Shown in pieces: positions 4,975-31,885 of a stretch of DNA of 64,000 bases (within the stretch, counting starts at the first letter, position 1; each line of letters begins with the position of its first letter). The position numbers were made by a program, and so were the translations under genes. The notes beneath the pieces are model-generated. The model was not told where the DNA came from, ran no database searches, and saw only the letters and a program-made list of their open reading frames with translations. The stretch lies in assembly GCF_021155765.1 (NCBI RefSeq), contig NC_060114.1, positions 6,138,001 through 6,202,000 of the forward strand, in the 5' to 3' direction. The DNA is from Diprion similis (Eukaryota; Arthropoda; Insecta; Hymenoptera; Diprionidae).

Positions 4975-5663
4975 GTCGAAATTCCAAAAAATAAGACTGG
5001 AGAATAGTAAGGGGTTAGGCTTTGTTTTTTTTCCTAGCGAATAACGTTTCGTCTTATTGTTGAAATGAAATTCGACGAACAGCCGAGACATCACGATGAA
5101 GTCGTGAAGTTTTTTGGCTGTAACTTTTGATCCGTTGCTCGCAGCGCGATTGAACTGCGCTCTGATGATTTCTCTCGAGAAATTACGTCGGAAGAGTGCC
5201 TGAAGAAATTTTTTGCAGCACTTTTCCTAATCGTTAATATTTTCGCAAAACATGCAAAGGAGTTAGCATTACTTTTTTGGTCATTTTTGGGGCCGAGAAT
5301 TTTTCGTCTCAAAATCGATTTACATGACCCTTTCTAGATTGATTGAACGCCCAGAAACTCAGGAAACACGAAAAAAAGCACAGGACCAACATCGGAAAAA
5401 TTATGACGCAAAGACAAGCAGCAGAAAATTTGAGAAAATACGTCTTTCGTTTTTTGGCTGCAACTTTTAATCCGTTGCTCGCAGCGTATTGGGACCTCGC
5501 TCAATCGATTCCTCTCGCGAAATTACGTCGAAATAGCGCCCTAAAGAAATAATTGCAGCAGTTTTCAAAGTCGTCGAAATTTTCGCCAAGAATCCAAAGG
5601 GGTTAGCCTTACTTTTTTTGCGATTATCGAAGCCGAAAAATTCTGGTCTCCGAAATTATTTGT
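4975..5663 (+). repeat. Decayed left-edge satellite monomers
   Basis: The first two monomers are clearly related to the core but far more diverged. The first lacks several constant blocks. The second (ATGACC at 5324) carries an insertion of about 28 bp and is followed by the next unit only after 340 bp. The core spacing of 312 begins at 5664. Confidence 0.8.
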
Positions 5664-8600
5664 ATGACCGTTTCTCGGCTAATTGGAACCCCAGGAACTC
5701 AAAAAACACATGTAAAGAAGCGTAGGACCAACAGCAGAGAAATGACGATGAAAATCTGCAGTTTTTTGGCTGTAACTTTTGATCCGTTGCTCGCAGCGTA
5801 TTGGGACTGCGCTCAATCGATTCCTCTTGCAAAATTACGTCGAAATAGTGCCCTGAAGAAATAACTGCAGCACTTTTCGAGGTCGTCGAAATTTTCGCCA
5901 CAAATCCAAAGGGGTTAGCCTTACTTTTTTGCGATTTTTGGAGCCGAAAATTTCTGGTCTCCGAATTTATCTGTATGACCGTTCCTCGGCTAATCGGAAC
6001 CCCAGGAACTCAAAAAACACATGTAAAAAAGCGTAGAACCAACAGCAGAGAAATGACGATGAAAATTTGCAGTTTTTTGGCTGTAACTTTTGATCCGTTG
6101 CTCGCAGCGTATTGGGACCTCGCTCAATCGATTCCTCTCGCGAAATTACGTCGAAATAGCGCCCTAAAGAAATAGTTGCAGCAGTTTTCAAAGTCGTCAA
6201 AATTTTCGCCAAAAATCCAAAGGGGTTAGCCTTACTTTTTTTTGCGATTTTTAGAGCCGAAAAATTCTGGTCTCCGAATTTATTTGTATGACCGTTTCTC
6301 GGCTAATTGGAACCCCAGGAACTCAAAAAACACATGTAAAAAAGCGTAGGACCAACAGCAGAGAAATGACGATGGAAATCTGCAGTTTTTTGGCTGTAAC
6401 TTTTGATCCGTTACTCGCAGCGTATTGGGACTGCGCTCGATCAATTCCTCTTGCAAAATTAGGTCGAAATAGTGCCCTAAAGAAATAATTGCAGCAGTTT
6501 TCAAAGTCGTCGAAATTTTCGCCAAGAATCCAGAGGGGTTAGCCTTACTTTTTTTGCGATTTTTGGAGCCGAAAAATTCTGGTCTCCGAATTTATTTAGA
6601 TGACCGTTTCTCGGCTAATTGGAACCCCAGGAACTCAAATAACACATGTAAAAAAGCGTAGGACCAACAGCAGAGAAATGACGATGGAAATCTGCAGTTT
6701 TTTTGGCCGTTACTTTTGATCCGTTGCTCGCAGCGTATTGGAACCTCGCTCAATCGATTCCTCTCGCAAAATTACGTCGGAATAGTGCCCTAAAGAAATG
6801 ATTGCAGCACTTTTCAAAGTCGTCGAAATTTTCGCCAAAAATCCAAAGGGGTTAGCCTTACTTTTTTTGCGATTTTTGGAGCCGAAAATTTCTGGTCTCC
6901 GAATTTATTTGTATGACCGTTTCTAGGCTAATTGGAACCCCAGGAACTCAAAAAACACATGTAAAAAGCGTTGGACCAACAGCAAAGAAATGACAATGAA
7001 AATTTGCAGTTTTTCGGCTGTAACTTTTGATCCGTTGCTCGCAACGTATTGGGACCTCGCTCAATCGATTCCTCTCGAAAATTTACGTCGGAATAGTGCC
7101 CTAAAGAAATAATTGCAGCACTTTTCGATGTCGTCGAAATTTTCGCCAAAAATCCAAAGGGGTTAGCCTTACTTTTTTTGCGATTTTTGGAGCCGAAAAT
7201 TTCTGGTCTCCGAATTTATTTGTATGACCGTTTCTAGGCTAATTGGAACCCCAGGAACTCGAAAAACACATGTAAAAAAGCGTTGGACCAACAGCAAAGA
7301 AATGACGATAAAAAATTGCAGTTTTTCGGCTGTAACTTTTGATCCGTTGCTCGCAGCGTATTGGGACCTCGCTCAATCGATTCCTCTCAAGAATTTACGT
7401 CGGAATAGTGCCCTAAAGAAATAATTGCAGCACTTTTCAAAGTCGTCGAAATTTTCGCCAAAAATCCAAAGGGGTTAGCCTTACTTTTTTTGCGATTTTT
7501 GAAGCCGAAAATTTCTGGTCTCCGAATTCATTTGTATGACCGTTTCCAGGCTAATTGTAACCCCAGGAACTCAAAAAACACATGTAAAAAAGCGTTGGAC
7601 CAACAGCAAAGAAATGACGATGAAAATTTGCAGTTTTTCGGCCGTAACTTTTGATCCGTTGCTCGCAGCGTATTGGGACCTCGCTCAATCGATTCCTCTC
7701 GCAAAATTACGTCGGAATAGTGCCCTAAAGAAATGATTGCAGCACTTTTCGATGTTGTAAAAATTTTCGCCAAAAATCCAAAGGGGTTAGCCTTACTTTT
7801 TTTGCGATTTTTGGAGCCGAAAATTTCTGGTCTCCGAATTTATTTGTATGACCGTTTCTAGGCTCATTGGAACCCCAGGAACTCGAAAAACACATGTAAA
7901 AAAGAGTTGGACCAACAGCAAAGAAATGACGATGAAAAATTGCAGTTTTTTGGCTGTAACTTTTGATCCGTTGCTCGCAGCATATTGAGACCTCGCTCAA
8001 TCGATTCCTCTCGCAAAATTACGTCGGAATAGTGCCCTAAAGAAATGATTGCAGCACTTTTCGATGTTGTCGAAATTTTGGCCAAAAATCCAAAGGGGTT
8101 AGCCTTACTTTTTTTGCGATTTTTGGAGCCGAAAATTTCTGGTCTCCGAATTTATTTGTATGACCGTTTCTAGGCTAATTGGAACCCCAGGAACTCGAAA
8201 AACACATGTAAAAAAGCGTAGGACCAACAGCAGAAAAATAACGATGGAAATCTGCAGTTTTTCGGCTGTTACTTTTGATCCGTTGCTCGCAGCGTATTGG
8301 GACCTCGCTCAATCGATTCCTTTCGCAAAATTACCTCGGAATAGTGCCCTGAAGAAATAATTGCAGCACTTTTCAAAGTCGTCGAAATTTTCGCCAAAAA
8401 TCCAAAGGGGTTAGCCTTACTTTTTTTGCGATTTTTATAGCCGAAAATTTCTGGTCTCCGAATTCATTTGTATGACCGTTTCTAGGCTAATTGGAACCCC
8501 AGGAACTCGAAAAACACATGTAAAAAAGCGTTGGACCAACAGCAAAGAAATGACGATGAAAAATTGCAGTTTTTCGGCTGTAACTTTGGATCCGTTGCTC

Positions 8601-11600
8601 GCAGCGTATTGGGACCTCGCTCAATCGATTCCTCTCAAGAATTTACGTCGGAATAGTGCCCTAAAGAAATAATTGCAGCACTTTTCGATGTTGTCGAAAT
8701 TTTCGCCAAAAATCCAAAGGGGTTAGCCTTACTTTTTTTGCGATTTTTGGAGCCGAAAATTTCTGGTCTCCGAATTTATTTGTATCACCGTTTCTAGGCT
8801 AATTGGAACCCCAGGAACTCAAAAAACACATGTGAAAAAGCGTAGGACCAACAGCAGAGAAATGACGATGAAAATCTGCAGTTTTTCGGCTGTTACTTTT
8901 GATCCGTTGCTCGCAGCGTATTGGGACCTCGCTCAATCGATTCCTCTCGCAAAATTACGTCGGAATAGTGCCCTAAAGAAATAATTACAGCACTTTGTAA
9001 AGTCGTCAAAATTTTCGCCAAGAATCCAAAGGGGTTAGCCTTACTTTTTTTGCGATTTTTGTAGCCGAAAATTTCTGGTCTCCGAATTTATTTGTATGAC
9101 CGTTTCTAGGCTAATTGGAACCCCAGGAACTCAAAAAACACATGTAAAAAAGCGTTGGACCAACAGCAAAGAAATGACGATGAAAATTTGCAGTTTTTCG
9201 GCTGTAACTTTTGATCCGTTGCTCGCAGCGTATTGGGACCTCACTCAATCGATTTCTCTCGCAAAATTACGTCGGAATAGTGCCCTAAAGAAATGATTGC
9301 AGCACTTTTCGATGTCGTCGAAATTTTCGCCAAGAATCCAAAGGGGTTAGCCTTACTTTTTTTGCGATTTTTGAAGCCGAAAATTTCTGGTCTCCGAATT
9401 TATTTGTATGACCGTTCCTAGGCTAATCGGAACCCCAGGAACTCGAAAAACACATGTAAAAAAGCGTAGGACCAACAGCAGAGAAATGACGATGGAAATC
9501 TGCAGTTTTTCGGCTGTAACTTTTGATCCGTTGCTCGCAGCGTATTGGGACCTCGCTCAATCGATTCCTCTCGAGAATTTACGTCGGAATAGTGCCCTAA
9601 CGAAATAATTGCAGCACTTTTCAAAGTCGTCGAAATTTTCGCCAAAAATCCAAAGGGGTTAGCCTTACTTTTTTTGCGATTTTCAGAGCCGAAAATTTCT
9701 GGTCTCCGAATTTATTTGTATGACCGTTTCTAGGCTAATTGGAACCCCAGGAACTCAAAAAACACATGTAAAAAAGCGTTGGACCAACAGCAAAGAAATG
9801 ACGATGAAAATTTGCAGTTTTTCGGCTGTAACTTTTGATCCGTTGCTCGCAGCGTATTGGGACCTCGCTCAATCGATTCCTCTCAAGAATTTACGTCGGA
9901 ATAGTGCCCTAAAGAAATAATTGCAGCACTTTTCAAAGTCGTCGAAATTTTCGCCAAAAATCCAAAGGGGTTAGCCTTACTTTTTTTGCGATTTTTGAAG
10001 CCGAAAATTTCTGGTCTCCGAATTCATTTGTATGAACGTTTCCAGGCTAATTGTAACCCCAGGAACTCAAAAAACACATGTAAAAAAGCGTTGGACCAAC
10101 AGCAAAGAAATGACGATGAAAATTTGCAGTTTTTCGGCCGTAACTTTTGATCCGTTGCTCGCAGCGTATTGGGACCTCGCTCAATCGATTCCTCTCGCAA
10201 AATTACGTCGGAATAGTGCCCTAAAGAAATGATTGCAGCACTTTTCGATGTTGTCGAAATTTTCGCCAAAAATCCAAAGGGGTTAGCCTTACTTTTTTTG
10301 CGATTTTTGGAGCCGAAAATTTCTGGTCTCCGAATTTATTTGTATGACCGTTTCTAGGCTAATTGGAACCCCAGGAACTCAAAAAACACATGTCAAAAAG
10401 CGTAGGACCAACAGCAGAGAAATGACGATGGAAATCTGCAGTTTTTCGGCTGTTACTTTTGATCCGTTGCTCGCAGCGTATTGGGACCTCGCTCAATCGA
10501 TTCCTCTCGCAAAATTACGTCGGAATAGTGCCCTAAAGAAATGATTGCAGCACTTTTCGATGTTGTCGAAATTTTGGCCAAAAATCCAAAGGGGTTAGCC
10601 TTACTTTTTTTGCGATTTTTGGAGCCGAAAATTTCTGGTCTCCGAATTTATTTGTATGACCGTTTCTAGGCTAATTGGAACCCCAGGAACTCGAAAAACA
10701 CATGTAAAAAAGCGTAGGACCAACAGCAGAGAAATAACGATGGAAATCTGCAGTTTTTCGGCTGTTACTTTTGATCCGTTGCTCGCAGCGTATTGGGACC
10801 TCGCTCAATCGATTCCTTTCGCAAAATTACCTCGGAATAGTGCCCTGAAGAAATAATTGCAGCACTTTTCAAAGTCGTCGAAATTTTCGCCAAAAATCCA
10901 AAGGGGTTAGCCTTACTTTTTTTGCGATTTTTAGAGCCGAAAATTTCTGGTCTCCGAATTCATTTGTATGACCGTTTCTAGGCTAATTGGAACCCCAGGA
11001 ACTCGAAGACACATGTAAAAAAGCGTTGGACCAACAGCAAAGAAATGACGATGAGAAATTGCAGTTTTTCGGCTGTAACTTTGGATCCGTTGCTCGCAGC
11101 GTATTGGGACCTCGCTCAATCGATTCCTCTCAAGAATTTACGTCGGAATAGTGCCCTAAAGAAATAATTGCAGCACTTTTCGATGTTGTCGAAATTTTCG
11201 CCAAAAATCCAAAGGGGTTAGCCTTACTTTTTTTGCGATTTTTGGAGCCGAAAATTTCTGGTCTCCGAATTTATTTGTATCACCGTTTCTAGGCTAATTG
11301 GAACCCCAGGAACTCAAAAAACACATGTGAAAAAGCGTAGGACCAACAGCAGAGAAATGACGATGGAAATCTGCAGTTTTTCGGCTGTTACTTTTGATCC
11401 GTTGCTCGCAGCGTATTGGGACCTCGCTCAATCGATTCCTCTCGCAAAATTACGTCGGAATAGTGCCCTAAAGAAATAATTACAGCACTTTTCAAAGTCG
11501 TCGAAATTTTCGCCAAAAATCCAAAGGGGTTAGCCTTACTTTTTTTGCGATTTTTAGAGCCGAAAATTTCTGGTCTCCGAATTCATTTGTATGACCGTTT

Positions 11601-14600
11601 CTAGGCTAATTGGAACCCCAGGAACTCGAAAAACACATGTAAAAAAGCGTTGGACCAACAGCAAAGAAATGACGATGAAAATTTGCAGTTTTTCGGCTGT
11701 AACTTTTGATCCGTTGCTCGCAGCATATTGGGACCTCGCTCAATCGATTCCTCTCGAAAATTTACGTCGGAATAGTGCCCTAAAGAAATAATTGCAGCAC
11801 TTTTCAAAGTCGTCGAAATTTTCGCCAAAAATCCAAAGGGGTTAGCCTTACTTTTTTTGCGATTTTTGGAGACGAAAATTTCTGGTCTCCGAATTTATTT
11901 GTATGACCGTTTCTAGGCTAATTGGAACCCCAGGAACTCGAAAAACACATGTAAAAAAGCGTTGGACCAACAGCAAAGAAATGACGATAAAAATTTGCAG
12001 TTTTTCGGCTGTAACTTTTGATCCGTTACTCGCAGCGTATTGGGACCTCGCTCAATCGATTCCTCTCGCAAAATTACGTCGGAATAGTGCCCTAAAGAAA
12101 TGATTGCAGCACTTTTCGATGTTGTCGAAATTTTGGCCAAAAATCCAAAGGGGTTAGCCTTACTTTTTTTGCGATTTTGGAGCCGAAAATTTCTGGTCTC
12201 CGAATTTATTTGTATGACCGTTTCTAGGCTAATTGGAACCCCAGGAACTCGAAAAACACATGTAAAAAAGCGTTGGACCAACAGCAAAGAAATAACGATG
12301 AAAATTTGCAGTTTTTCGGCTGTAACTTTTGATCCGTTACTCGCAGCGTATTGGGACCTCGCTCAATCGATTCCTCTCGCAAAATTACGTCGGAATAGTG
12401 CCCTAAAGAAATGATTGCAGCACTTTTCGATGTTGTCGAAATTTTGGCCAAAAATCCAAAGGGGTTAGCCTTACTTTTTTTGCGATTTTTGGAGCCGAAA
12501 ATTTCTGGTCTCCGAATTTATTTGTATGACCGTTTCTAGGCTAATTGGAACCCCAGGAACTCGAAAAACACATGTCAAAAAGCGTAGGACCAACAGCAGA
12601 GAAATAACGATGGAAATCTGCAGTTTTTCGGCTGTTACTTTTGATCCGTTGCTCGCAGCGTATTGGGACCTCGCTCAGTCGATTCCTTTCGCAAAATTAC
12701 CTCGGAATAGTGCCCTGAAGAAATAATTGCAGCACTTTTCAAAGTCGTCAAAATTTTCGCCAAAAATCCAAAGGGGTTAGCCTTACTTTTTTTGCGATTT
12801 TTGAAGCCGAAAATTTCTGGTCTCCGAATTTATTTGTATGACCGTTCCTAGGCTAATCGGAACTCCAGGAACTCGAAAAACACATGTAAAAAAGCGTAGG
12901 ACCAACAGCAGAGAAATGACGATGGAAATCTGCAGTTTTTCGGCTGTAACTTTTGATCCGTCGCTCGCAGCGTATTGGGACCTCGCTCAATCGATTCCTC
13001 TCGAAAATTTACGTCGGAATAGTGCCCTAACGAAATAATTGCAGCACTTTTCAAAGTCGTCGAAATTTTCGCCAAAAATCCAAAGGGGTTAGCCTTACTT
13101 TTTTTGCGATTTTTAGAGCCGAAAATTTCTGGTCTCCGAATTTATTTGTATGACCGTTTCTAGGCTAATTGGAACCCCAGGAACTCAAAAAACACATGTA
13201 AAAAAGCGTTGGACCAACAGCAAAGAAATGACGATGAAAATTTGCAGTTTTTCGGCTGTAACTTTTGATCCGTTGCTCGCAGCGTATTGGGACCTCGCTC
13301 AATCGATTCCTCTCGCAAAATTACGTCGGAATAGTGCCCTAAAGAAATGATTGCAGCACTTTTCGATGTTGTCGAAATTTTCGCCAAAAATCCAAAGGGG
13401 TTAGCCTTACTTTTTTTGCGATTTTTGGAGCCGAAAATTTCTGGTCTCCGAATTTATTTGTATGACCGTTTCTAGGCTAATTGGAACCCCAGGAACTCGA
13501 AAAACACATGTAAAAAAGCGTTGGACCAACAGCAAAGAAATGACGATGAAAAATTGCAGTTTTTCGGCTGTAACTTTTGATCCGTTGCTCGCAGCGTATT
13601 GGGACCTCGCTCAATCGATTCCTCTCAAGAATTTACGTCGGAATAGTGCCCTCAAGAAATAATTGCAGCACTTTTCAAAGTCGTCGAAATTTTCGCCAAA
13701 AATCCAAAGGGGTTAGCCTTACTTTTTTTGCGATTTTTGAAGCCGAAAATTTCTGGTCTCCGAATTCATTTGTATGACCGTTTCCAGGCTAATTGGAACC
13801 CCAGGAACTCAAAAAACACATGTAAAAAAGCGTTGGACCAACAGCAAAGAAATGACGATGAAAATTTGCAGTTTTTCGGCTGTAACTTTTGATCCGTTGC
13901 TCGCAGCGTATTGGGACCTCGCTCAATCGATTTCTCTCGCAAAATTACGTCAGAATAGTGCCCTGAAGAAATGATTGCAGCACTTTTCGATGTTGTCGAA
14001 ATTTTCGCCAAAAATCCAAAGGGGTTAGCCTTACTTTTTTTGCGATTTTTGGAGCCGAAAATTTCTAGTCTCCGAATTTATTTGTATGACCGTTTCTAGG
14101 CTAATTGGAACCCCAGGAACTCAAAAAACACATGTAAAAAAGCGTAGGACCAACAGCAGAGAAATGACGATGGAAATCTGCAGTTTTTCGGCTGTTACTT
14201 TTGATCCGTTGCTCGCAGCGTATTGGGACCTCGCTCAATCGATTCCTCTCGCAAAATTACGTCGGAATAGTGCCCTAAAGAAATAATTGCAGCACTTTTC
14301 AAAGTCGTCGAAATTTTCGCCAAAAATCCAAAGGGGTTAGCCTTACTTTTTTTGCGATTTTTGGAGCCGAAAATTTCTGGTCTCCGAATTCATTTGTATG
14401 ACCGTTTCTAGGCTAATTGGAACCCCAGGAACTCGAACAACACATGTAAAAAAGAGTTGGACCAACAGCAAAGAAATGACGATGAAAAATTGCAGTTTTT
14501 TGGCTGTAACTTTGGATCCGTTGCTCCCAGCGTATTGGGACCTCGCTCAATCGATTCCTCTCAAGAATTTACGTCGGAATAGTGCCCTAAAGAAATAATT

Positions 14601-15957
14601 GCAGCACTTTTCGATGTTGTCGAAATTTTCGCCAAAAATCCAAAGGGGTTAGCCTTACTTTTTTTGCGATTTTTGGAGCCGAAAATTTCTGGTCTCCGAA
14701 TTTATTTGTATGACCGTTTCTAGGCTAATTGGAACCCCAGGAACTCAAAAAACACATGTGAAAAAGCGTAGGACCAACAGCAGAGAAATGACGATGAAAA
14801 TCTGCAGTTTTTCGGCTGTTACTTTTGATCCGTTGCTCGCAGCGTATTGGGACCTCGCTCAATCGATTCCTCTTGCAAAATTACGTCGGAATAGTGCCCT
14901 AAAGGAATAATTGCAGCACTTTTCAAAGTCGTCAAAATTTTCGCCAAGAATCCAAAGGGGTTAGCCTTACTTTTTTTGCGATTTTTGTAGCCGAAAATTT
15001 CTGGTCTCCGAATTTATTTGTATGACCGTTTCTAGGCTAATTAGAACCCCAGGAACTCGAAAAACACATGTAAAAAAGCGTTGGACCAACAGCAAAGAAA
15101 TGACGATGAAAATTTGCAGTTTTTCGGCGGTAACTTTTGATCCGTTGCTCGCAGCGTATTGGGACCTCGCTCAATCGATTTCTCTCGCAAAATTACGTCG
15201 GAATAGTGCCCTAAAGAAATGATTGCAGCACTTTTCGATGTCGTCGAAATTTTCGCCAAGAATCCAAAGGGGTTAACCTTACTTTTTTTGCGATTTTCGG
15301 AGCCGAAAATTTCTGGTCTCCGAATTTATTTGTATGACCGTTTCTAGGCTAATTGGAACCCCAGGAACTCGAAAAACACATGTAAAAAAGAGTTGGACCA
15401 ACAGCAAAGAAATGACGATGAAAAATTGCAGTTTTTCGGCTGTAACTTTTGATCCGTTGCTCGCAGCGTATTGGGATCTCGCTCAATCGATTCCTCTCGA
15501 GAATTTACGTCGGAAAAGTGCCCTAAAGAAATAATTGCGGCACTTTTCAAAGTCGTCGAAATTTTCGCCAAAAATCCAAAGGGGTTAGCCTTACTTTTTT
15601 TGCGATTTTTGAAGCCGAAAATTTCTGGTCTCCGAATTCATTTGTATGACCGTTTCCAGGCTAATTGGAACCCCAGGAACTCAAAAAACACATGTAAAAA
15701 AGCGTTGGACCAACAGCAAAGAAATGACGATGAAAATTTGCAGTTTTTCCGCTGTAACTTTTGATCCGTTGCTCGCAGCGTATTGGGACCTCGCTCAATC
15801 GATTCCTCTCCCAAAATTACGTCGGAATAGTGCCCTAAAGAAATAATTGCAGCACTTTTCAAAGTTGTCGAAATTTTCGCCAAAAATCCAAAGGGGTTAG
15901 CCTTCCTTTTTTTGCGATTCTTGGAGCCGAAAATTTCTGGTCTCCGAATTTATTTGT

Positions 15958-18900: not shown

Positions 18901-20949
18901 TATTGGGACCTCGCTCAATTAATTCCTCTCGCAAAATTACGTCGGAATAGTGCCCCAAAGAAATAATTGCAGCACTTTTCAAAGTCGTCGAAATTTTCGC
19001 CAAAAATCCAAAGGGGTTAGCCTTCCTTTTTTTGCGATTTTTGGAGCCGAAAATTTCTGGTCTCCGAATTTATTTGTATGACCGTTTTAGGGCTAATTGG
19101 AACCCCAGGAACTCAAAAAACACATGTAAAAAAGCGTAGGACCAACAGCAGAGAAATGACGATGGAAATCTGCAGTTTTTTGGCTGTTACTTTTGATCCG
19201 TTGCTCGCAGCGTATTGGGACCTCGCTCAATCGATTCCTCTCGCAAAATTACGTCGGAATAGTGCCCTAAAGAAATAATTGCAGCACTTTTCAAAGTCGT
19301 CGAAATTTTCGCCAAAAATCCAAAGGGGTTAGCCTTCCTTTTTTTGCGATTTTTGGAGCCGAAAATTTCTGGTCTCCGAATTTATTTGTATGACCGTTTC
19401 TAGGCTAATTGGAACCCCAGGAACTCGAAAAACACATGTAAAAAAGCGTTGGACCAACAGCAAAGAAATGACGATGAAAATTTGCAGTTTTTCGGCTGTA
19501 ACTTTTGATCCGTTGCTCGCAGCGTATTGGGACCTCGCTCAATCGATTTCTCTCGCAAAATTACGTCGGAATAGTGCCCTAAAGAAATAATTGCAGCACT
19601 TTTCGATGTCGTCGAAATTTTCGCCAAGAATCCAAAGGGGTTAGCCTTACTTTTTTTGCGATTTTTGAAGCCGAAAATTTCTGGTCTCCGAATTTATTTG
19701 TATGACCGTTCCTAGGCTAATCGGAACCCCAGGAACTCGAAAAACACATGTAAAAAAGCGTAGGACCAACAGCAGAGAAATGACGATGGAAATCTGCAGT
19801 TTTTCGGCTGTAACTTTTGATCCGTTGCTCGCAGCGTATTGGGACCTCGCTCAATCGATTCCTCTCGAAAATTTACGTCGGAATAGTGCCCTAACGAAAT
19901 AATAGCAGCACTTTTCAAAGTCGTCGGAATTTTCGCCAAAAATCCAAAGGGGTTAGCCTTACTTTTTTTGCGATTTTTAGAGCCGAAAATTTCTGGTCTC
20001 CGAATTTATTTGTATGACCGTTTCTAGGCTAATTGGAACCCCAGGAACTCAAAAAACACATGTAGAAAAGCGTTGGACCAACAGCAAAGAAATGACGATG
20101 AAAATTTGCAGTTTTTCGGCTGTAACTTTTGATCCGTTGCTCGCAGCGTATTGGGACCTCGCTCAATCGATTTCTCTCGCAAAATTACGTCGGAATAGTG
20201 CCCTAAAGAAATAATCGCAGCACTTTTCAGAGTCGTCGAAATTTTCGCCAAAAATCCAAAGGGGTTAGCCTTCCTTTTTTTGCGATTTTTGGAGCCGAAA
20301 ATTTCTGGTCTCCGAATCTATTTGTATGACCGTTTCTAGGCTAATTGGAACCCCAGGAACTCGAAAAACACATGTAAAAAAGCGTTGGACCAACAGCAAA
20401 GAAATGACGATGAAAATTTGCAGTTTTTCGGCGGTAACTTTTGATCCGTTGCTCGCAGCGTATTGGGACCTCGCTTAATCGATTTCTCTCGCAAAATTAC
20501 GTCGGAATAGTGCCCTAAAGAAATGATTGCAGCACTTTTCGATGTCGTCGAAATTTTCGCCAAGAATCCAAAGGGGTTAACCTTACTTTTTTTGCGATTT
20601 TCGGAGCCGAAAATTTCTGGTCTCCGAATTTATTTGTATGACCGTTTCTAGGCTAATTGGAACCCCAGGAACTCGAAAAACACATGTAAAAAAGAGTTGG
20701 ACCAACAGCAAAGAAATGACGATGAAAAATTGCAGTTTTTCGGCTGTAACTTTTGATCCGTTGCTCGCAGCGTATTGGGATCTCGCTCAATCGATTCCTC
20801 TCGCAAAATTACGTCGGAATAGTGCCCTAAAGAAATAATTGCAGCACTTTTCAAAGTCGTCGAAATTTTCGCCAAAAATCCAAAGGGGTTAGCCTTCCTT
20901 TTTTTGCGATTTTTGGAGCCGAAAATTTCTGGTCTCCGAATTTATTTGT
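15958..20949 (+). repeat. Two copies of an 8-monomer higher-order repeat (2,496 bp each)
   Basis: Diagnostic variants recur in the same order 2,496 bp apart: a unit with cacatatcaaaaag (15958 and 18454), one with actcatgaaacac (16270 and 18766), one with accgttttagggc (16582 and 19078), then units at 16894/19390, 17206/19702 (accgttcctagg, cgaaataatagc), 17518/20014, 17830/20326 and 18142/20638 (aaagagttgg). The same variants reappear at 23134, 23446 and 23758, 4,680 bp (15 units) further on. An independent 2,496-bp relation exists at the left: 7536/10032 (taattgtaacccc), 8160/10656 and, within one base, 8784/11279 (tatcaccg). Confidence 0.85.
16806..16873 (+). repeat. Dyad-symmetric hairpin inside the satellite monomer (example copy)
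   Basis: Left arm GAAATTTTCG + CCAAAAATC (16806-16824) is the reverse complement of GATTTTTGG (16852-16860) + CGAAAATTTC (16864-16873), with a 3-base AGC bulge and a loop of about 27 bases containing GGGGTTAGCC. CAAA/TTTG can extend the stem by 4 bp. The same arrangement is present in every core monomer I inspected and in the diverged unit near 31155-31225. Confidence 0.8.
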
Positions 20950-23900
20950 ATGACCGTTTCTAGGCTAATTGGAACCCCAGGAACTCGAAAAACACATGTA
21001 AAAAAGCGTTGGACCAACAGCAAAGAAATGACGATGAAAATTTGCAGTTTTTCGGCTGTAACTTTTGATCCGTTGCTCGCAGCGTATTGGGACCTCGCTC
21101 AATCGATTTCTCTCGCAAAATTACGTCGGAATAGTGCCCTAAAGAAGTAATTGCAGCACCTTTCGATGTCGTCGAAATTTTCGCCAAGAATCCAAAGGGG
21201 TTAGCCTTACTTTTTTTGCGATTTTTGAAGCCGAAAATTTCTGGTCTCCGAATTTATTTGTATGACCGTTCCTAGGCTAATCGGAACCCCAGGAACTCGA
21301 AAAACACATGTAAAAAAGCGTAGGACCAACAGCAGAGAAATGACGATGGAAATCTGCAGTTTTTCGGCTGTAACTTTTGATCCGTTGCTCGCAGCGTATT
21401 GGGACCTCGCTCAATCGATTCCTCTCGAAAATTTACGTCGGAATAGTGCCCTAACGAAATAATAGCAGCACTTTTCAAAGTCGTCGGAATTTTCGCCAAA
21501 AATCCAAAGGGGTTAGCCTTACTTTTTTTGCGATTTTTAGAGCCGAAAATTTCTGGTCTCCGAATTTATTTGTATGACCGTTTCTAGGCTAATTGGAACC
21601 CCAGGAACTCAAAAAACACATGTAAAAAAGCGTTGGACCAACAGCAAAGAAATGACGATGAAAATTTGCAGTTTTTCGGCTGTAACTTTTGATCCGTTGC
21701 TCGCAGCGTATTGGGACCTCGCTCAATCGATTTCTCTCGCAAAATTACGTCGGAATAGTGCCCTAAAGAAATAATCGCAGCACTTTTCAGAGTCGTCGAA
21801 ATTTTCGCCAAAAATCCAAAGGGGTTAGCCTTCCTTTTTTTGCCATTTTTGGAGCCGAAAATTTCTGGTCTCCGAATCTATTTGTATGACCGTTTCTAGG
21901 CTAATTGGAACCCCAGGAACTCGAAAAACACATGTAAAAAAGCGTTGGACCAACAGCAAAGAAATGACGATGAAAATTTGCAGTTTTTCGGCGGTAACTT
22001 TTGATCCGTTGCTCGCAGCGTATTGGGACCTCGCTCAATCGATTTCTCTCGCGAAATTACGTCGGAATAGTGCCCTAAAGAAATGATTGCAGCACTTTTC
22101 GATGTCGTCGAAATTTTCGCCAAGAATCCAAAGGGGTTAACCTTACTTTTTTTGCGATTTTCGGAGCCGAAAATTTCTGGTCTCCGAATTTATTTGTATG
22201 ACCGTTTCTAGGCTAATTGGAACCCCAGGAACTCGAAAAACACATGTAAAAAAGCGTTGGACCAACAGCAAAGAAATGACGATGAAAATTTGCAGTTTTT
22301 CGGCGGTAACTTTTGATCCGTTGCTCGCAGCGTATTGGGACCTCGCTCAATCGATTTCTCTCGCGAAATTACGTCGGAATAGTGCCCTAAAGAAATGATT
22401 GCAGCACTTTTCGATGTCGTCGAAATTTTCGCCAAAAATCCAAAGGGGTTAGCCTTATTTTTTTTGCGATTTTTGAAGCCGAAAATTTCTGGTCTCCGAA
22501 TTCATTTGTATGACCGTTTCCAGGCTAATTGGAACCCCAGGAACTCAAAAAACACATGTAAAAAAGCGTTGGACCAACAGCAAAGAAATGACGATGAAAA
22601 TTTGCAGTTTTTCCGCTGTAACTTTTGATCCGTTGCTCGCAGCGTATTGGGACCTCGCTCAATCGATTCCTCTCCCAAAATTACGTCGGAATAGTGCCCT
22701 AAAGAAATAATTGCAGCACTTTTCAAAGTTGTCGAAATTTTTGCCAAAAATCCAAAGGGGTTAGCCTTCCTTTTTTTGCGATTTTTGGAACCGAAAATTT
22801 CTGGTCTCTGAATTTATTTGTATGACCGTTTCTAGGCTAATTGGAACCCCAGGAACTCGAAAAACACATGTAAAAAAGCGTTGGACCAACAGCAAAGAAA
22901 TGACGATGAAAATTTGCATTTTTTCGGCTGTAACTTTTGATCCGTTGCTCGCAGCGTATTGGGACCTCGCTCAATCGATTCCTCTCGCAAAATTACGTCG
23001 GAATAGTGCCCTAAAGAAATAATCGCAGCACTTTTCAAAGTCGTCGAAATTTTCGCCAAAAATCCAAAGGGGTTAGCCTTCCTTTTTTTGCGATTTTTGG
23101 AGCCGAAAATTTCTGGTCTCCGAATTTATTTGTATGACCGTTTTCAGGCTAATTGGAACCCCAGGAACTCAAAAAACACATATCAAAAAGCGTTGGACCA
23201 ACAGCAAAGAAATGACGATGAAAATTTGCAGTTTTTCGGCTGTAACTTTTGATCCGTTGCTCGCAGCGTATTGGGACCTCGCTTAATCGATTCCTCTCGC
23301 AAAATTACGTCGGAATAGTGCCCTAAAGAAATGATTGCAGCACTTTTCGATGTTGTCGAAATTTTCGCCAAAAATCCAAAGGGGTTAGCCTTACTTTTTT
23401 TGCGATTTTTGGAGCCGAAAATTTCTGGTCTCCGAATTTATTTGTATGACCGTTTCTAGGCTAATTGGAACCCCAGGAACTCATGAAACACATGTAAAAA
23501 AGCGTAGGACCAACAGCAGAGAAATGACGATGAAAATTTGCAGTTTTTCGGCTGTAACTTTTGATCCGTTGCTCGCAGCGTATTGGGACCTCGCTCAATT
23601 AATTCCTCTCGCAAAATTACGTCGGAATAGTGCCCCAAAGAAATAATTGCAGCACTTTTCAAAGTCGTCGAAATTTTCGCCAAAAATCCAAAGGGGTTAG
23701 CCTTCCTTTTTTTGCGATTTTTGGAGCCGAAAATTTCTGGTCTCCGAATTTATTTGTATGACCGTTTTAGGGCTAATTGGAACCCCAGGAACTCAAAAAA
23801 CACATGTAAAAAAGCGTAGGACCAACAGCAGAGAAATGACGATGGAAATCTGCAGTTTTTTGGCTGTTACTTTTGATCCGTTGCTCGCAGCGTATTGGGA

Positions 23901-26900
23901 CCTCGCTCAATCGATTTCTCTCGCAAAATTACGTCGGAATAGTGCCCTAAAGAAATAATTGCAGCACTTTTCGATGTCGTCGAAATTTTCGCCAAGAATC
24001 CAAAGGGGTTAGCCTTACTTTTTTTGCGATTTTGAAGCCGAAAATTTCTGGTCTCCGAATTTATTTGTATGACCGTTCCTAGGCTAATCGGAACCCCAGG
24101 AACTCGAAAAACACATGTAAAAAAGCGTAGGACCAACAGCAGAGAAACGACGATGGAAATCTGCAGTTTTTCGGCTGTAACTTTTGATCCGTTGCTCGCA
24201 GCGTATTGGGACCTCGCTCAATCGATTCCTCTCGAAAATTTACGTCGGAATAGTGCCCTAACGAAATAATAGCAGCACTTTTCAAAGTCGTCGGAATTTT
24301 CGCCAAAAATCCAAAGGGGTTAGCCTTACTTTTTTTGCGATTTTTAGAGCCGAAAATTTCTGGTCTCCGAATTTATTTGTATGACCGTTTCTAGGCTAAT
24401 TGGAACCCCAGGAACTCAAAAAACACATGTAAAAAAGCGTTGGACCAACAGCAAAGAAATGACGATGAAAATTTGCAGTTTTTCGGCTGTAACTTTTGAT
24501 CCGTTGCTCGCAGCGTATTGGGACCTCGCTCAATCGATTTCTCTCGCAAAATTACGTCGGAATAGTGCCCTAAAGAAATAATCGCAGCACTTTTCAGAGT
24601 CGTCGAAATTTTCGCCAAAAATCCAAAGGGGTTAGCCTTCCTTTTTTTGCGATTTTTGGAGCCGAAAATTTCTGGTCTCCGAATCTATTTGTATGACCGT
24701 TTCTAGGCTAATTGGAACCCCAGGAACTCGAAAAACACATGTAAAAAAGCGTTGGACCAACAGCAAAGAAATGACGATGAAAATTTGCAGTTTTTCGGCG
24801 GTAACTTTTGATCCGTTGCTCGCAGCGTATTGGGACCTCGCTCAATCGATTTCTCTCGCAAAATTACGTCGGAATAGTGCCCTAAAGAAATGATTGCAGC
24901 ACTTTTCGATGTCGTCGAAATTTTCGCCAAGAATCCAAAGGGGTTAACCTTACTTTTTTTGCGATTTTTGGAGCCGAAAATTTCTGGTCTCCGAATTTAT
25001 TTGTATGACCGTTTCTAGGCTAATTGGAACCCCAGGAACTCGAAAAACACATGTAAAAAAGAGTTGGACCAACAGCAAAGAAATGACGATGAAAAATTGC
25101 AGTTTTTCGGCTGTAACTTTTGATCCGTTGCTCGCAGCGTATTGGGACCTCGCTCAATCGATTCCTCTCGAAAATTTACGTCGGAATAGTGCCCTAACGA
25201 AATAATAGCAGCACTTTTCAAAGTCGTCGGAATTTTCGCCAAAAATCCAAAGGGGTTAGCCTTACTTTTTTTGCGATTTTTAGAGCCGAAAATTTCTGGT
25301 CTCCGAATTTATTTGTATGACCGTTTCTAGGCTAATTGGAACCCCAGGAACTCAAAAAACACATGTAAAAAAGCGTTGGACCAACAGCAAAGAAATGACG
25401 ATGAAAATTTGCAGTTTTTCGGCTGTAACTTTTGATCCGTTGCTCGCAGCGTATTGGGACCTCGCTCAATCGATTTCTCTCGCAAAATTACGTCGGAATA
25501 GTGCCCTAAAGAAATAATCGCAGCACTTTTCAAAGTCGTCGAAATTTTCGCCAAAAATCCAAAGGGGTTAGCCTTCCTTTTTTTGCGATTTTTGGAGCCG
25601 AAAATTTCTGGTCTCCGAATCTATTTGTATGACCGTTTCTAGGCTAATTGGAACCCCAGGAACTCGAAAAACACATGTAAAAAAGCGTTGGACCAACAGC
25701 AAAGAAATGACGATGAAAATTTGCAGTTTTTCGGCGGTAACTTTTGATCCGTTGCTCGCAGCGTATTGGGACCTCGCTCAATCGATTTCTCTCGCAAAAT
25801 TACGTCGGAATAGTGCCCTAAAGAAATGATTGCAGCACTTTTCGATGTCGTCGAAATTTTCGCCAAGAATCCAAAGGGGTTAACCTTACTTTTTTTGCGA
25901 TTTTTGGAGCCGAAAATTTCTGGTCTCCGAATTTATTTGTATGACCGTTTCTAGGCTAATTGGAACCCCAGGAACTCGAAAAACACATGTAAAAAAAAGT
26001 TGGACCAACAGCAAAGAAATGACGATGAAAAATTGCAGTTTTTCGGCTGTAACTTTTGATCCGTTGCTCGCAGCGTATTGGGATCTCGCTCAATCGATTC
26101 CTCTCGAGAATTTACGTCGGAATAGTGCCCTAAAGAAATAATTGCGGCACTTTTCAAAGTCGTCGAAATTTTCGCCAAAAATCCAAAGGGGTTAGCCTTA
26201 CTTTTTTTGCGATGTTTGAAGCCGAAAATTTCTGGTCTCCGAATTCATTTGTATGACCGTTTCCAGGCTAATTGGAACCCCAGGAACTCAAAAAACACAT
26301 GTAAAAAAGCGTTGGACCAACAGCAAAGAAATGACGATGAAAATTTGCAGTTTTTCCGCTGTAACTTTTGATCCGTTGCTCGCAGCGTATTGGGACCTCG
26401 CTCAATCGATTCCTCTCCCAAAATTACGTCGGAATAGTGCCCTAAAGAAATAATTGCAGCACTTTTCAAAGTTGTCGAAATTTTTGCCAAAAATCCAAAG
26501 GGGTTAGCCTTCCTTTTTTTGCGATTTTTGGAACCGAAAATTTCTGGTCTCTGAATTTATTTGTATGACCGTTTCTAGGCTAATTGGAACCCCAGGAACT
26601 CGAAAAACACATGTAAAAAAGCGTTGGACCAACAGCAAAGAAATGACGATGAAAATTTGCAGTTTTTCGGCTGTAACTTTTGATCCGTTGCTCGCAGCGT
26701 ATTGGGACCTCGCTCAATCGATTTCTCTCGCAAAATTACGTCGGAATAGTGCCCTAAAGAAATAATCGCAGCACTTTTCAAAGTCGTCGAAATTTTCGCC
26801 AAAAATCCAAAGGGGTTAGCCTTCCTTTTTTTGCGATTTTTGGAGCCGAAAATTTCTGGTCTCCGAATTTATTTGTATGACCGTTTCCAGGCTAATTGGA

Positions 26901-29900
26901 ACCCCAGGAACTCAAAAAACACATATCAAAAAGCGTTGGACCAACAGCAAAGAAATGACGATGAAAATTTGCAGTTTTTCGGCTGTAACTTTTGATCCGT
27001 TGCTCGCAGCGTATTGGGACCTCGCTCAATCGATTCCTCTCGCAAAATTACGTCGGAATAGTGCCCTAAAGAAATGATTGCAGCACTTTTCGATGTTGTC
27101 GAAATTTTCGCCAAAAATCCAAAGGGGTTAGCCTTACTTTTTTTGCGATTTTTGGAGCCGAAAATTTCTGGTCTCCGAATTTATTTGTATGACCGTTTCT
27201 AGGCTAATTGGAACCCCAGGAACTCATAAAACACATGTAAAAAAGCGTAGGACCAACAGCAGAGAAATGACGATGAAAATTTGCAGTTTTTCGGCTGTAA
27301 CTTTTGATCCGTTGCTCGCAGCGTATTGGGACCTCGCTCAATCGATTTCTCTCGCAAAATTACGTCGGAATAGTGCCCTAAAGAAATGATTGCAGCACTT
27401 TTCGATGTCGTCGAAATTTTCGCCAAGAATCCAAAGGGGTTAACCTTACTTTTTTTGCGATTTTTGAAGCCGAAAATTTCTGGTCTCCGAATTTATTTGT
27501 ATGACCGTTCCTAGGCTAATCGGAACCCCAGGAACTCGAAAAACACATGTAAAAAAGCGTCGGACCAACAGCAGAGAAATGACGATGGAAATCTGCAGTT
27601 TTTCGGCTGTAACTTTTGATCCGTTGCTCGCAGCGTATTGGGACCTCGCTCAATCGATTCCTCTCGCAAAATTACGTCGGAATAGTGCCCTAAAGAAATG
27701 ATTGCAGCACTTTTCGATGTTGTCGAAATTTTCGCCAAAAATCCAAAGGGGTTAGCCTTACTTTTTTTGCGATTTTTGGAGCCGAAAATTTCTGGTCTCC
27801 GAATTTATTTGTATGACCGTTTCTAGGCTAATTGGAACCCCAGGAACTCGAAAAACACATGTAAAAAAGCGTAGGATCAACAGCAGAGAAATGACGATGG
27901 AAATCTGCAGTTTTTTGGCTGTTACTTTTGATCCGTTGCTCGCAGCGTATTGGGACCTCGCTCAATCGATTCCTCTCGCAAAATTACGTCGGAATAGTGC
28001 CCTAAAGAAATAATTGCAGCACTTTTCAAAGTTGTCGAAATTTTCGCCAAAAATCCAAAGGGGTTAGCCTTCCTTTTTTTGCGATTTTTGGAGCCGAAAA
28101 TTTCTGGTCTCCGAATTTATTTGTATGACCGTTTTTGGGCCAATTGGAACCCCAGGAACTCAAAAAACACATGTAAAAAAGCGTTGGACCAACAGCAAAG
28201 AAATGACGATGAAAATTTGCAGTTTTTCGGCTGTAACTTTTGATCCGTTGCTCGCAGCGTATTGGGACCTCACTAAATCGATTCCTTTCGAAAATTTACG
28301 TCGGAATAGTGCCCTAAAGAAATAATTGCAGCACTTTTCGATGTCGTCGAAATTTTCGCCAAAAATCCAACGGGGTTAGCCTTACTTTTTTTGCGATTTT
28401 TGGAGCCGAAAATTTCTGGTCTCCGAATTTATTTGTATGACCGTTTCCAGGCTAATTGGAACCCCAGGAACTCAAAAAACACATATCAAAAAGCGTTGGA
28501 CCAACAGCAAAGAAATGACGATGAAAATTTGCAGTTTTTCGGCTGTAACTTTTGATCCGTTGCTCGCAGCGTATTGGGACCTCGCTCAATCGATTTCTCT
28601 CGCAAAATTACGTCGGAATAGTGCCCTAAAGAAATGATTGCAGCACTTTTCGATGTCGTCGAAATTTTCGCCAAGAATCCAAAGGGGTTAACCTTACTTT
28701 TTTTGCGATTTTTGAAGCCGAAAATTTCTGGTCTCCGAATTTATTTGTATGACCGTTCCTAGGCTAATCGGAACCCCAGGAACTCGAAAAACACATGTAA
28801 AAAAGCGTCGGACCAACAGCAGAGAAATGACGATGGAAATCTGCAGTTTTTCGGCTGTAACTTTTGATCCGTTGCTCGCAGCGTATGGGACCTCGCTCAA
28901 TCGATTCCTCTCGCAAAATTACGTCGGAATAGTGCCCTAAAGAAATGATTGCAGCACTTTTCGATGTTGTCGAAATTTTCGCTAAAAATCCAAAGGGGTT
29001 AGCCTTACTTTTTTTGCGATTTTTGGAGCCGAAAATTTCTGGTCTCCGAATTTATTTGTATGACCGTTTCTAGGCTAATTGGAACCCCAGGAACTCATAA
29101 AACACATGTAAAAAAGCGTAGGACCAACAGCAGAGAAATGACGATGAAAATTTGCAGTTTTTCGGCTGTAACTTTTGATCCGTTGCTCGCAGCGTATTGG
29201 GACCTCGCTCAATTGATTCCTTTCGCAAAATTACGTCGGAATAGTGCCCCAAAGAAATAATTGCAGCACTTTTCAAAGTCGTCGAAATTTTCGCCAAAAA
29301 TCCAAAGGGGTTAGCCTTCCTTTTTTTGCGATTTTTGGAGCCGAAAATTTCTGGTCTCCGAATTTATTTGTATGACCGTTTTAGGGCTAATTGGAACCCC
29401 AGGAACTCAAAAAACACATGTAAAAAAGCGTAGGACCAACAGCAGAGAAATGACGATGGAAATCTGCAGTGTTTTGGCTGTTACTTTTGATCCGTTGCTC
29501 GCAGCGTATTGGGACCTCGCTCAATCGATTCCCCACGCAAAATTACGTCGGAATAGTGCCCTAAAGAAATAATTGCAGCACTTTTCAAAGTCGTCGAAAT
29601 TTTCGCCAAGAATCCAAAGGGGTTAGCCTTACTTTTTTTGCGATTTTTGGAGCCGAAAATTTCTGGTCTCCGAATTTATTTGTATGACCGTTCCTAGGCT
29701 AATTGGAACCCCAGGAACTGAAAAAACACATGTAAAAAAGCGTTGGACCAACAGCAAAGAAATGACGATGAAAATTTGCAGTTTTTCGGCTGTAACTTTT
29801 GATCCGTTGCTCGCAGCGTATTGGGACCTCGCTCAATCGATTTCTCTCGCAAAATTACGTCGGAATAGTGCCCTAAAGAAATGATTGCAGCACTTTTCGA

Positions 29901-31243
29901 TGTCGTCGAAATTTTCGCCAAGAATCCAAAGGGGTTAGCCTTACTTTTTTTGCGATTTTTGGAGCCGAAAATTTCTGGTCTCCGAATTTATTTGTATGAC
30001 CGTTCCTAGGCTAATTGGAACCCCAGGAACTCGAAAAACACATGTAAAAAAGCGTAGGACCAACAGCAGAGAAATGACGATGGAAATCTGCAGTTTTTCG
30101 GCTGTTACTTTTGATCCGTTGCTCGCAGCGTATTGGGACCTCGCTCAATCGATTCCTTTCGCAAAATTACGTCGGAATAGTGCCCTAAAGAAATAATTGC
30201 AGCACTTTTCAAAGTCATCGAAATTTTCGCCAAAAATCCAAAGGGGTTAGCCTTCCTTTTTTTGCGATTTTTGGAGCTGAAAATTTCTGGTCTCCGAATT
30301 TATTTGTATGACCGTTTTAGGGCTAATTGGAACCCCAGGAACTCAAAAAACACATGTAAAAAAGCGTAGGATCAACAGCAGAGAAATGACGATGGAAATC
30401 TGCAGTTTTTTGGCTGTTACTTTTGATCCGTTGCTCGCAGCGTATTGGGACCTCGCTCAATCGATTCCTCTCGCAAAATTACGTCGGAATAGTGCCCTAA
30501 AGAAATAATTGCAGCACTTTTCAAAGTCGTCGAAATTTTCGCCAAAAATCCAAAGGGGTTAGCCTTCCTTTTTTTGCGATTTTTGGAGCCGAAAATTTCT
30601 GGTCTCCGAATTTATTTGTATGACCGTTTCAGGGCTAATTGGAACCCCAGGAACTCAAAAAACACACGTAAAAAAGCGTAGGAACAACAGCAGAGAAATG
30701 ACGATGAAAATCTGCAGTTTTTTGGCTGTTACTTTTGATCCGTTGCTCGCAGCGTATTGGGACCTCGCTTAATCGATTCCTCTCGCAAAATTACGTCGGA
30801 TTAGCGCCTTAAAGAAATAATTGCAGCACTTTTCAAAGTCGTCGAAATTTCCGCCAAAAATCCAAAGGGGTTAGCCTTAGTTTTTTTGCGATTTTTGGAG
30901 CCGAAAATTTCTGGTCTCCAAATTCATTTGTATGACCGTTTTCCGGCTAATTGGAACCCCAGGAACTCAAAAAACACATGCAAAAAAGCGTAGGACCAAC
31001 AGCAGAAAAATGACGATGAAAATCTGCAGTTTTTTGGCTGTAACTTTCGATCCGTTGCTCGCAGCGTATTGAGACTGCGTTCAATCGATTTCTGTTGCAA
31101 AATTACTTTGGAATAGTGGTCCAAAGAAATAATTGCAGCACTTTTTAGAGTCGTCGAAATTTTTGCCAAAAATCCAATGGGATTAGCCTCACTTATTTTG
31201 CGATTTTTGGAGCCGAAAGTTTCTCGTTTCGGAATCGATTTGT

Positions 31244-31885
31244 ATGACTTTTAGTAATTCGACCCCCAAGAACTCAGGAAACACCGCAAAAAGTCCGTAG
31301 GAACATTAGCAGAGAAATACCGATCAAGGAATAAGTGTCAGTAAAACCACGAAATGAACGTTTCGTTATTTCGCTGTAACTCTAGATGCCATGCTTGCAG
31401 CGTATGGGCACCGCGCCGAATCGATTTTCTTCGCAAAATGCCGTCGGAAAAGGGCATGAAAAACTTGTTCACAACACTTTCCAAAAACGTTGAAATTTCC
31501 GTCAAAAATCCAAAGGGGATAGCCCCACTTTCCTTCGAACGAAATGTCTTGTGTGCCAGAAGTGACATGTCACACCTGTCTTTGACTAGTAGAACCCACA
31601 GGAACGCAGAAAACGCAGCATTGAAAGCGTCGGATCAACCACGGAGATTTAACGAAGCAAAGTTGAGCAGCAGAAAAAATGACCGAAGCAATTCTTTTTT
31701 TCTGTCAGGCTGTCACCCTTGTTTCGTTGCTTGCAGCGTTTTGGGACTGGGCGCAATCGACTTCAGTCGCAACACTACGTAGATATAGCGCATCATCGGA
31801 CTATTTCAGCAATATTCTACATCTTCTAAATTCTTACCAACAATTCAATGGGGTCAGCCCTACTTTCCTGAGCCAAAAATCCTAA
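31244..31885 (+). repeat. Decayed right-edge satellite monomers
   Basis: Two strongly diverged units close the array. They retain gcttgcagcg(t) in place of GCTCGCAGCG, AATCCAAAGGGG followed by ATAGCC, and, in the last unit, CAATGGGGTCAGCC. The final recognisable satellite sequence ends near 31885. Divergence is much greater than among core monomers, as expected for array ends that escape homogenisation. Confidence 0.8.

Follow-up and report, generated by a model that had tools for sequence, protein, structure and literature searches.

Within a 64,000-nucleotide stretch of the genome of the hymenopteran Diprion similis (C10:6138001-6202000, contig NC_060114.1, in an assembly of 269 Mb and 60 contigs; hereafter the window) stands a 27-kb tandem array of 312-bp monomers, and here we show that this array does not stand alone but belongs to an abundant satellite family that is dispersed through the assembly. 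At a probability of roughly 85%, we read the array as a non-coding euchromatic satellite locus in which blocks of several units have been duplicated by unequal exchange within the array; the confidences that we attach to this and to the other readings are not mutually exclusive. The array had been predicted to hold an 8-monomer higher-order structure, and we consider it very probable that its 8-unit offset is instead the size of separate duplication events, not that of a unit amplified in its own right.

Two programs agree on the array itself. Tandem Repeats Finder reports a single large array in the window, with a period of 312 bp and 82.8 copies at 5449-31284, and BLAST with one monomer places 86 head-to-tail units at 5116-31866, all of them on the plus strand. 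The original prediction of a 27-kb array with about 80 core units is thereby confirmed, and its bounds of 4975 to 31885 were right, if slightly wide. Parsing gave 83 units of 311-313 bp, except for the first (340 bp); the core comprises 82 tandem units of about 312 bp (5456..31035, plus strand; Tandem Repeats Finder, BLAST and unit parsing), which differ pairwise at a mean of 15.8 positions, or 95.4% identity over alignment columns. Diverged units stand at both ends, with identities to one core monomer of 77% on the left and of 80, 74 and 71% on the right. G+C content is about 41% in the array, as against about 32-39% in the nearest flanks. Although 312 is a multiple of three, a coding array was rejected: each of the six frames of the tandem consensus is interrupted by stops, with 98 codons as the longest open stretch, and no stop-to-stop frame of the actual array exceeds 149 amino acids. 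Length, single-strand head-to-tail order and stops in every frame are thus all as expected of a satellite.

The same family recurs across the genome in high copy number. A conserved 26-mer, searched with up to two mismatches, has 14,336 matches in the whole assembly (6,421 forward and 7,915 reverse), while the same pattern read backwards, as a control, has none genome-wide. At 312 bp per match the family would fill about 4.5 Mb, which is 1.7% of the assembly, an estimate that mostly misses a second, 342-bp type of unit, which deviates from the 26-mer at about three positions. By hand count, the matches fall at about 50 or more separate places on 12 contigs, a few of them single units or short runs. 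Several of the sampled arrays run from 27 kb to more than 45 kb, and three others hold just a few units. We compared 419 units from five arrays one by one (C10 in whole, and the fetched parts of those on C4, C9, C3 and C1): differences within arrays average 7.7-19.0 and those between arrays 15.0-29.6, and each of the five is closest to itself. Most loci likewise make their own groups in unit trees. High copy number thus goes together with array-specific homogenisation, as in a satellite.

Dispersal on this scale requires some vehicle, and one candidate would be a mobile element, of the Helitron type, that carries the array as cargo and spreads it; such satellites are described for oysters in a 2025 review (PMC12692304). 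We consider this very unlikely. Six flanks of about 5 kb taken beside arrays share no match at an E value of 1e-4, so that no common end emerges among these six ends, and most of the sampled ends consist of decayed monomers, not of constant termini. The left end of the array at C8:5.88 Mb is of another kind, stopping abruptly with no decayed unit.

Returning to unequal exchange within arrays, we find a pattern that it could have left in the order of the window's units. Unit pairs that differ at three or fewer positions occur at a lag of 8 units in 9 of 74 cases. With a cut of five or fewer, lag 8 has 12 such pairs, against a mean maximum over lags of 6.2 in 2,000 shuffles of unit order (p 0.0005), and the mean difference at this lag is 13.1, compared with 15.8 ± 0.45 after shuffling. 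Close units also come in runs: 13 runs of at least three were found, where 300 shuffles gave a mean of 0.4 and a maximum of 4, and the longest run is 7 units, as against 5 in the shuffles. These runs lie at lags 8, 5, 12, 15 and 22, and additionally at 3, 9, 13, 14, 17 and 25; the predicted offsets of 5, 12, 15 and 22 units, and that of 8, are therefore all present and exceed the order-shuffled controls.

The lag-8 similarity is concentrated in two zones. The larger pairs units 36-42 (16062..18245) with units 44-50 (18558..20741), which differ unit by unit at 1, 0, 0, 3, 1, 0 and 3 positions; here, too, lies the longest exact repeat of the array, with 895-bp copies at 16171 and 18667. The second zone pairs units 8 and 10-12 with units 16 and 18-20 (units 10-12 at 7952..8887 differ from units 18-20 at 10448..11382 by 4, 4 and 1), and one extra pair joins unit 72 with unit 80. 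Parts of the larger block recur downstream, but at spacings other than 8. For example, units 46-50 (19182..20741) are source or copy of units 51-55 (20742..22301) at lag 5, with differences of 2, 2, 1, 1 and 4; all of these blocks are on the plus strand.

Lag 8 is the strongest lag of the array and appears in two zones, and the C1 array also has a strong signal at lags 4 and 8; these are the points in favour of a canonical higher-order repeat (HOR), in which an 8-monomer unit was amplified as a block in the style of alpha satellite. We nevertheless regard this reading as highly improbable, because such a HOR should also give a signal at lags 16, 24 and 32. At those lags there are 0 of 66, 0 of 58 and 0 of 50 close pairs at three or fewer differences, and 0, 1 and 0 pairs at five or fewer. 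Grouping the monomers by position modulo 8 reveals no classes (15.69 differences within a class versus 15.82 between). Furthermore, neither zone is a copy of the other: when units 8-20 are compared with the units that lie 20 to 44 places further on, the lowest mean at any offset is 13.5 differences. What had been described as an 8-monomer order recurring in two parts of the array thus holds insofar as lag 8 does occur in two zones, but each block is present just twice and lacks harmonics. No multi-monomer unit of the window array is repeated three or more times with harmonics, and the predicted 8-mer structure does not stand.

A very different picture emerges from an array of the same family that serves as a positive control. 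Over the 19 kb of C3:12612001-12631000, base identity is 99.4% at a distance of 5,616 bp and 98.9% at 11,232 bp, compared with 97.1% at 312 bp. Of the unit pairs, 37 of 42 are close at lag 18, as are 19 of 24 at lag 36. Overall divergence between units is lower in this array than in the window (mean 8.8), so that the three-difference cut is easier there, but the mean at lag 18 is 1.8. Near 12.6 Mb a marker variant recurs with a period of 18 (agreement of 0.83 at lag 18, 0.79 at lag 36; a stretch in the middle is disturbed), and it can be followed across at least 12,599,659-12,644,920, a distance of 45 kb or more. Repeated copies with harmonics are thus present, and the array is a genuine 18-monomer HOR of 5,616 bp, with a nested 7-4-7 structure. 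Another organisation is found at C11:10106001-10114000, which is mainly an alternating 312/342 dimer with a 654-bp period, spacings of 354 and 300 bp and two tail lengths. The idea of HORs in this repeat therefore survives for the family, which does form them on C3 and C11, and fails for the window array, which holds none.

How might such patterns arise? Unequal exchange, slippage or break-induced replication would duplicate multi-unit blocks inside each array, and repeated duplication of this kind could leave two-copy blocks of many sizes, a homogeneous core and decaying edge units. Homogenisation would act mostly within arrays, with transfer between loci being rarer. The best block lags are consistent with separate events, varying among the five arrays even as 5, 8 and 12 recur: 8 and 12 on C10; 27, 5 and 13 on C4; 29, 5 and 10 on C9; 5 and 12 on C3; and 8 and 4 on C1. 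A review (PMC5615363) describes unequal crossing-over and gene conversion in satellites, as well as the reinsertion of extrachromosomal copies. It is from the pattern of the units that we infer an exchange mechanism for the window array. By default the array would be a passenger with no needed host function, which may still affect chromatin near its neighbours.

Several observations weigh against this account. Lag 8 is real and significant in the window array, and a period scan that combines lags P, 2P and 3P picks P = 4 there (16.9, 14.9 and 16.2 versus 18.9 overall), although this signal is carried by lags 8 and 12, and modulo-4 classes barely differ (15.65 versus 15.85). Weak 4- and 5-unit periodicities are present in two sister arrays: a 30-unit piece at C1:4.98 Mb has close pairs at lags 4, 8, 12 and 16 in 12 of 26, 13 of 22, 8 of 18 and 5 of 14 cases, and the C9 array has them at lags 5, 10 and 15 in 28 of 100, 19 of 95 and 10 of 90. 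Across a set of 29 units drawn from 28 arrays, positions 134-154 of the unit exceed shuffled columns in conservation (p 0.023), a possible hint of a binding site; the conservation is lost once edge units are added (p 0.15). Lastly, the copy number given for the array is that of the assembly.

Tests of the monomer for other properties gave little. No Rfam family matches the window at the gathering threshold, and a monomer folded as RNA or as DNA does not outdo its shuffled versions (z of 0.30, -0.42 and 0.64). A dimeric origin of the monomer was likewise rejected, its halves being no more alike than shuffles. The window consensus does contain an imperfect inverted repeat at about 121-188 of the unit (window 7448-7515; score 43, p 0.001 by dinucleotide shuffles). 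It is unevenly kept in the set of 29 units (28 arrays), folding the alignment of this region yields two short stems only, and no conclusion was rested on it.

The two length forms of the unit add a further layer to the history of the family. In most units the tail measures either 24 or 54 nt, and this 30-bp difference yields units of about 312 or 342 bp. The left edge unit of the window array (5116..5455, plus strand, 340 bp) is of the 342 type, with 85.7% identity to the 342-type consensus over its positions 1-342, and falls within the 342 group of a tree of 99 units (support 95/84), where its nearest units are on C4, C12 and C6. By contrast with this edge, six core units of the window make one group inside the main 312 group (94/91, slightly below the mark for firm support). 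On the right, the diverged unit at 31036..31372 (plus strand) has 342-type length and 80.5% identity to the 342-type consensus over 1-342, followed by the outermost decayed units at 31373..31866 (plus strand, 68-72% identity), the last of which is cut at about position 160. Units 31036 and 31373 both have 342-type spacing and fall outside both main groups; the rows nearest to the former by tree path are of the 312 type, and the latter sits on a long branch with an unsure placement.

The left edge unit, lying as it does in the long-form clade, suggests the overwriting of an older array. It is possible, though we give it somewhat less than an even chance, that a newer 312 form has partly overwritten older 342-type arrays at many unlinked euchromatic places and that old units survive mainly at the edges; the 312 form would then be derived from the 342 form. 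The tree test does not reject a single clade of the 342 units and the left edge unit of the window array (p-AU 0.10). An edge scan of 21 pieces covered 13 that hold an end of a 312-type array, three that reach no end, three short or mixed arrays, and two ends on C2 of a third kind, with 312 length and a body closer to the 342 type. At 6 of the 13 ends an outer unit aligns into the 342-specific segment: both ends of the window array, the right ends at C3:12.28 Mb and C1:4.99 Mb, and the left ends at C12:4.83 Mb and C1:0.114 Mb, the last at just 63% identity. The remaining 7 of 13 have no such unit, which rules out that edges are always of the 342 type.

Two further findings count against a simple form of this overwriting story. 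The 312-length units are not one clade: a single origin of that length is rejected (p-AU 0.0003) for the 59 units of the tree labelled 312, a label that was assigned from the spacing and may take in mixed arrays, and the main 312 group leaves out units of C2, C4:25.5 Mb and C12:15.97 Mb as well as one of C7. Moreover, some arrays mix the two forms. The 312-bp units at C2:17.697-17.707 Mb are closer to the 342-type consensus (88-89% in two pieces of the array) than to the 312-type one (84-86% in a third piece), and this array is possibly an intermediate form. On C1, which begins in a TTAGG telomere, the array at C1:113001-150000 starts about 113-115 kb from that telomere and has mixed 312- and 342-like units at its left edge.

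Arrays that reach tens of kb and recur at many places in gene-bearing DNA, on most of the large contigs, would also be the layout of a repeat-based holocentromere, in which dispersed arrays act as kinetochore sites, and they resemble in layout the dispersed centromere repeats of titles cited in PMC10048060. That the family serves in this way, or that the window array lies in a centromere core, we find hardly credible. At least two places were counted on at least 10 of the 12 contigs (for example, at least 7 on C1, at least 7 on C4 and at least 8 on C12), which is unlike a single classical centromere per chromosome for the family as a whole, although a single array could act as one. The core of the CENP-B box, a mark of alpha-like satellites, has no match on either strand of the array. 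Loss of CENP-A and CENP-C is known from holocentric insects. Here, a single exon-size match to the CENP-C_C domain lies at C2:10814441-10817581 with 33.1 bits, above the Pfam cut-off of 29, where control searches gave weak matches in 4 of 14 genomes and none above the cut-off. Given this match, the kinetochore is likely to be a conventional one, and the arrays are unlikely to play a holocentric role.

An assembly artefact is, in our view, also highly unlikely: tandem arrays are prone to collapse, but here the longest exact internal repeat is 895 bp, neighbouring units differ at about 16 positions, and the array has its own flanks on both sides in an assembly of chromosome-size contigs, one of which (C1) starts in a TTAGG telomere.

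The surroundings of the sampled arrays are mostly those of ordinary genes. Left of the window array is a gene for a small secreted protein with EKPVYV-type repeats (1530..3838, plus strand), of which three exons were read by eye and the two tested match no Pfam family. To the right, an open reading frame (ORF) at 41252..41809 (plus strand; no Pfam family) forms an exon whose GYGG-rich product has EKPVYVERPVYVEKQ repeats and, with repeats of the EKPVYV type, recalls the style of the left gene. The two genes, about 37 kb apart on either side of the array, are perhaps paralogues now parted by it, and their products may be akin to the Vajk-type cuticle proteins of insects. Further along, exons of a guanylate cyclase catalytic domain lie at 59407..60008 on the minus strand (PF00211, E values of 1.3e-25 and 6.4e-17). 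At four other arrays, 8 of 26 listed flanking ORFs were searched against Pfam and five have a family. At three of these four, a conserved gene stands no more than 10 kb from the array end that was sampled (a protein kinase near the C4 array, a ubiquitin-conjugating enzyme near that on C9 and sestrin exons near that on C1), and the one ORF tested in the C3 flank matches no family. The gene families found beside the sampled arrays therefore place them mostly in ordinary gene-bearing DNA, and the earlier view that the window array lies in gene-bearing sequence, not at an obvious centromere, is supported. Elsewhere, the insect odorant receptor family PF02949 has 103 matches in the assembly, which together with the TTAGG telomeres marks the genome as that of an insect; PF12278 matched neither the assembly nor any of its controls. 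Two of the receptor matches on C12 (C12:3757003-3758064 and C12:3836535-3837596) have identical scores and spacing about 79.5 kb apart, which suggests a recent segmental duplication in a receptor cluster.

With dozens of arrays in gene-bearing DNA, this family offers a good natural set for watching satellite turnover. Its arrays look to be at different stages, from decayed edges through the two-copy block duplications of the window to the true 18-mer HOR on C3. If the overwriting of 342-type arrays is borne out, array edges would be fossils of a previous satellite, and new units would have spread by homology-guided insertion into resident arrays. Should the edges prove to be remnants of an earlier subfamily, the spread of variants between loci could be tested by comparing edge with core.

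Among known satellites, a unit length near 300-360 bp is common. A word search of the open-licence literature, which cannot match a sequence, found no description of the 312-bp repeat. Satellites that are mainly euchromatic are known in insects, including Tribolium, Triatoma and Rhodnius, according to the 2025 review (PMC12692304). By their descriptions in two papers (PMC10218199, PMC12692304), the moderate- and low-copy satellite DNAs of Tribolium castaneum and those of Rhodnius prolixus resemble the present family in having mainly euchromatic arrays, families above 1% of the genome included, and T. castaneum further resembles it in its occasional dimeric HORs from length variants. The euchromatic arrays of T. 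castaneum are described there as relatively short (PMC12692304), whereas several here run from 27 to more than 45 kb and one carries an 18-mer HOR. The original prediction had called HORs less often documented in insects; they are in print all the same, as dimers in T. castaneum (PMC10218199) and, by a cited title, in the grasshopper Pyrgomorpha conica. The 1.688 satellite of Drosophila melanogaster is likewise dispersed near euchromatic genes, but its arrays mostly hold six or fewer repeats, according to PMC10048060, while those described here often hold tens to more than 100.

Primate alpha satellite provides the remaining comparison. Unlike it, the window array lacks both a recurrent HOR and the core of the CENP-B box, and its family is not restricted to a single site on each chromosome. 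The HORs of alpha satellite stem from the block duplication of divergent monomers, and it is the C3:12.6 Mb array that is organised in their manner. Taken together, the case is mostly an ordinary one, made a little unusual by the length of several of its dispersed arrays and by the 18-mer on C3.

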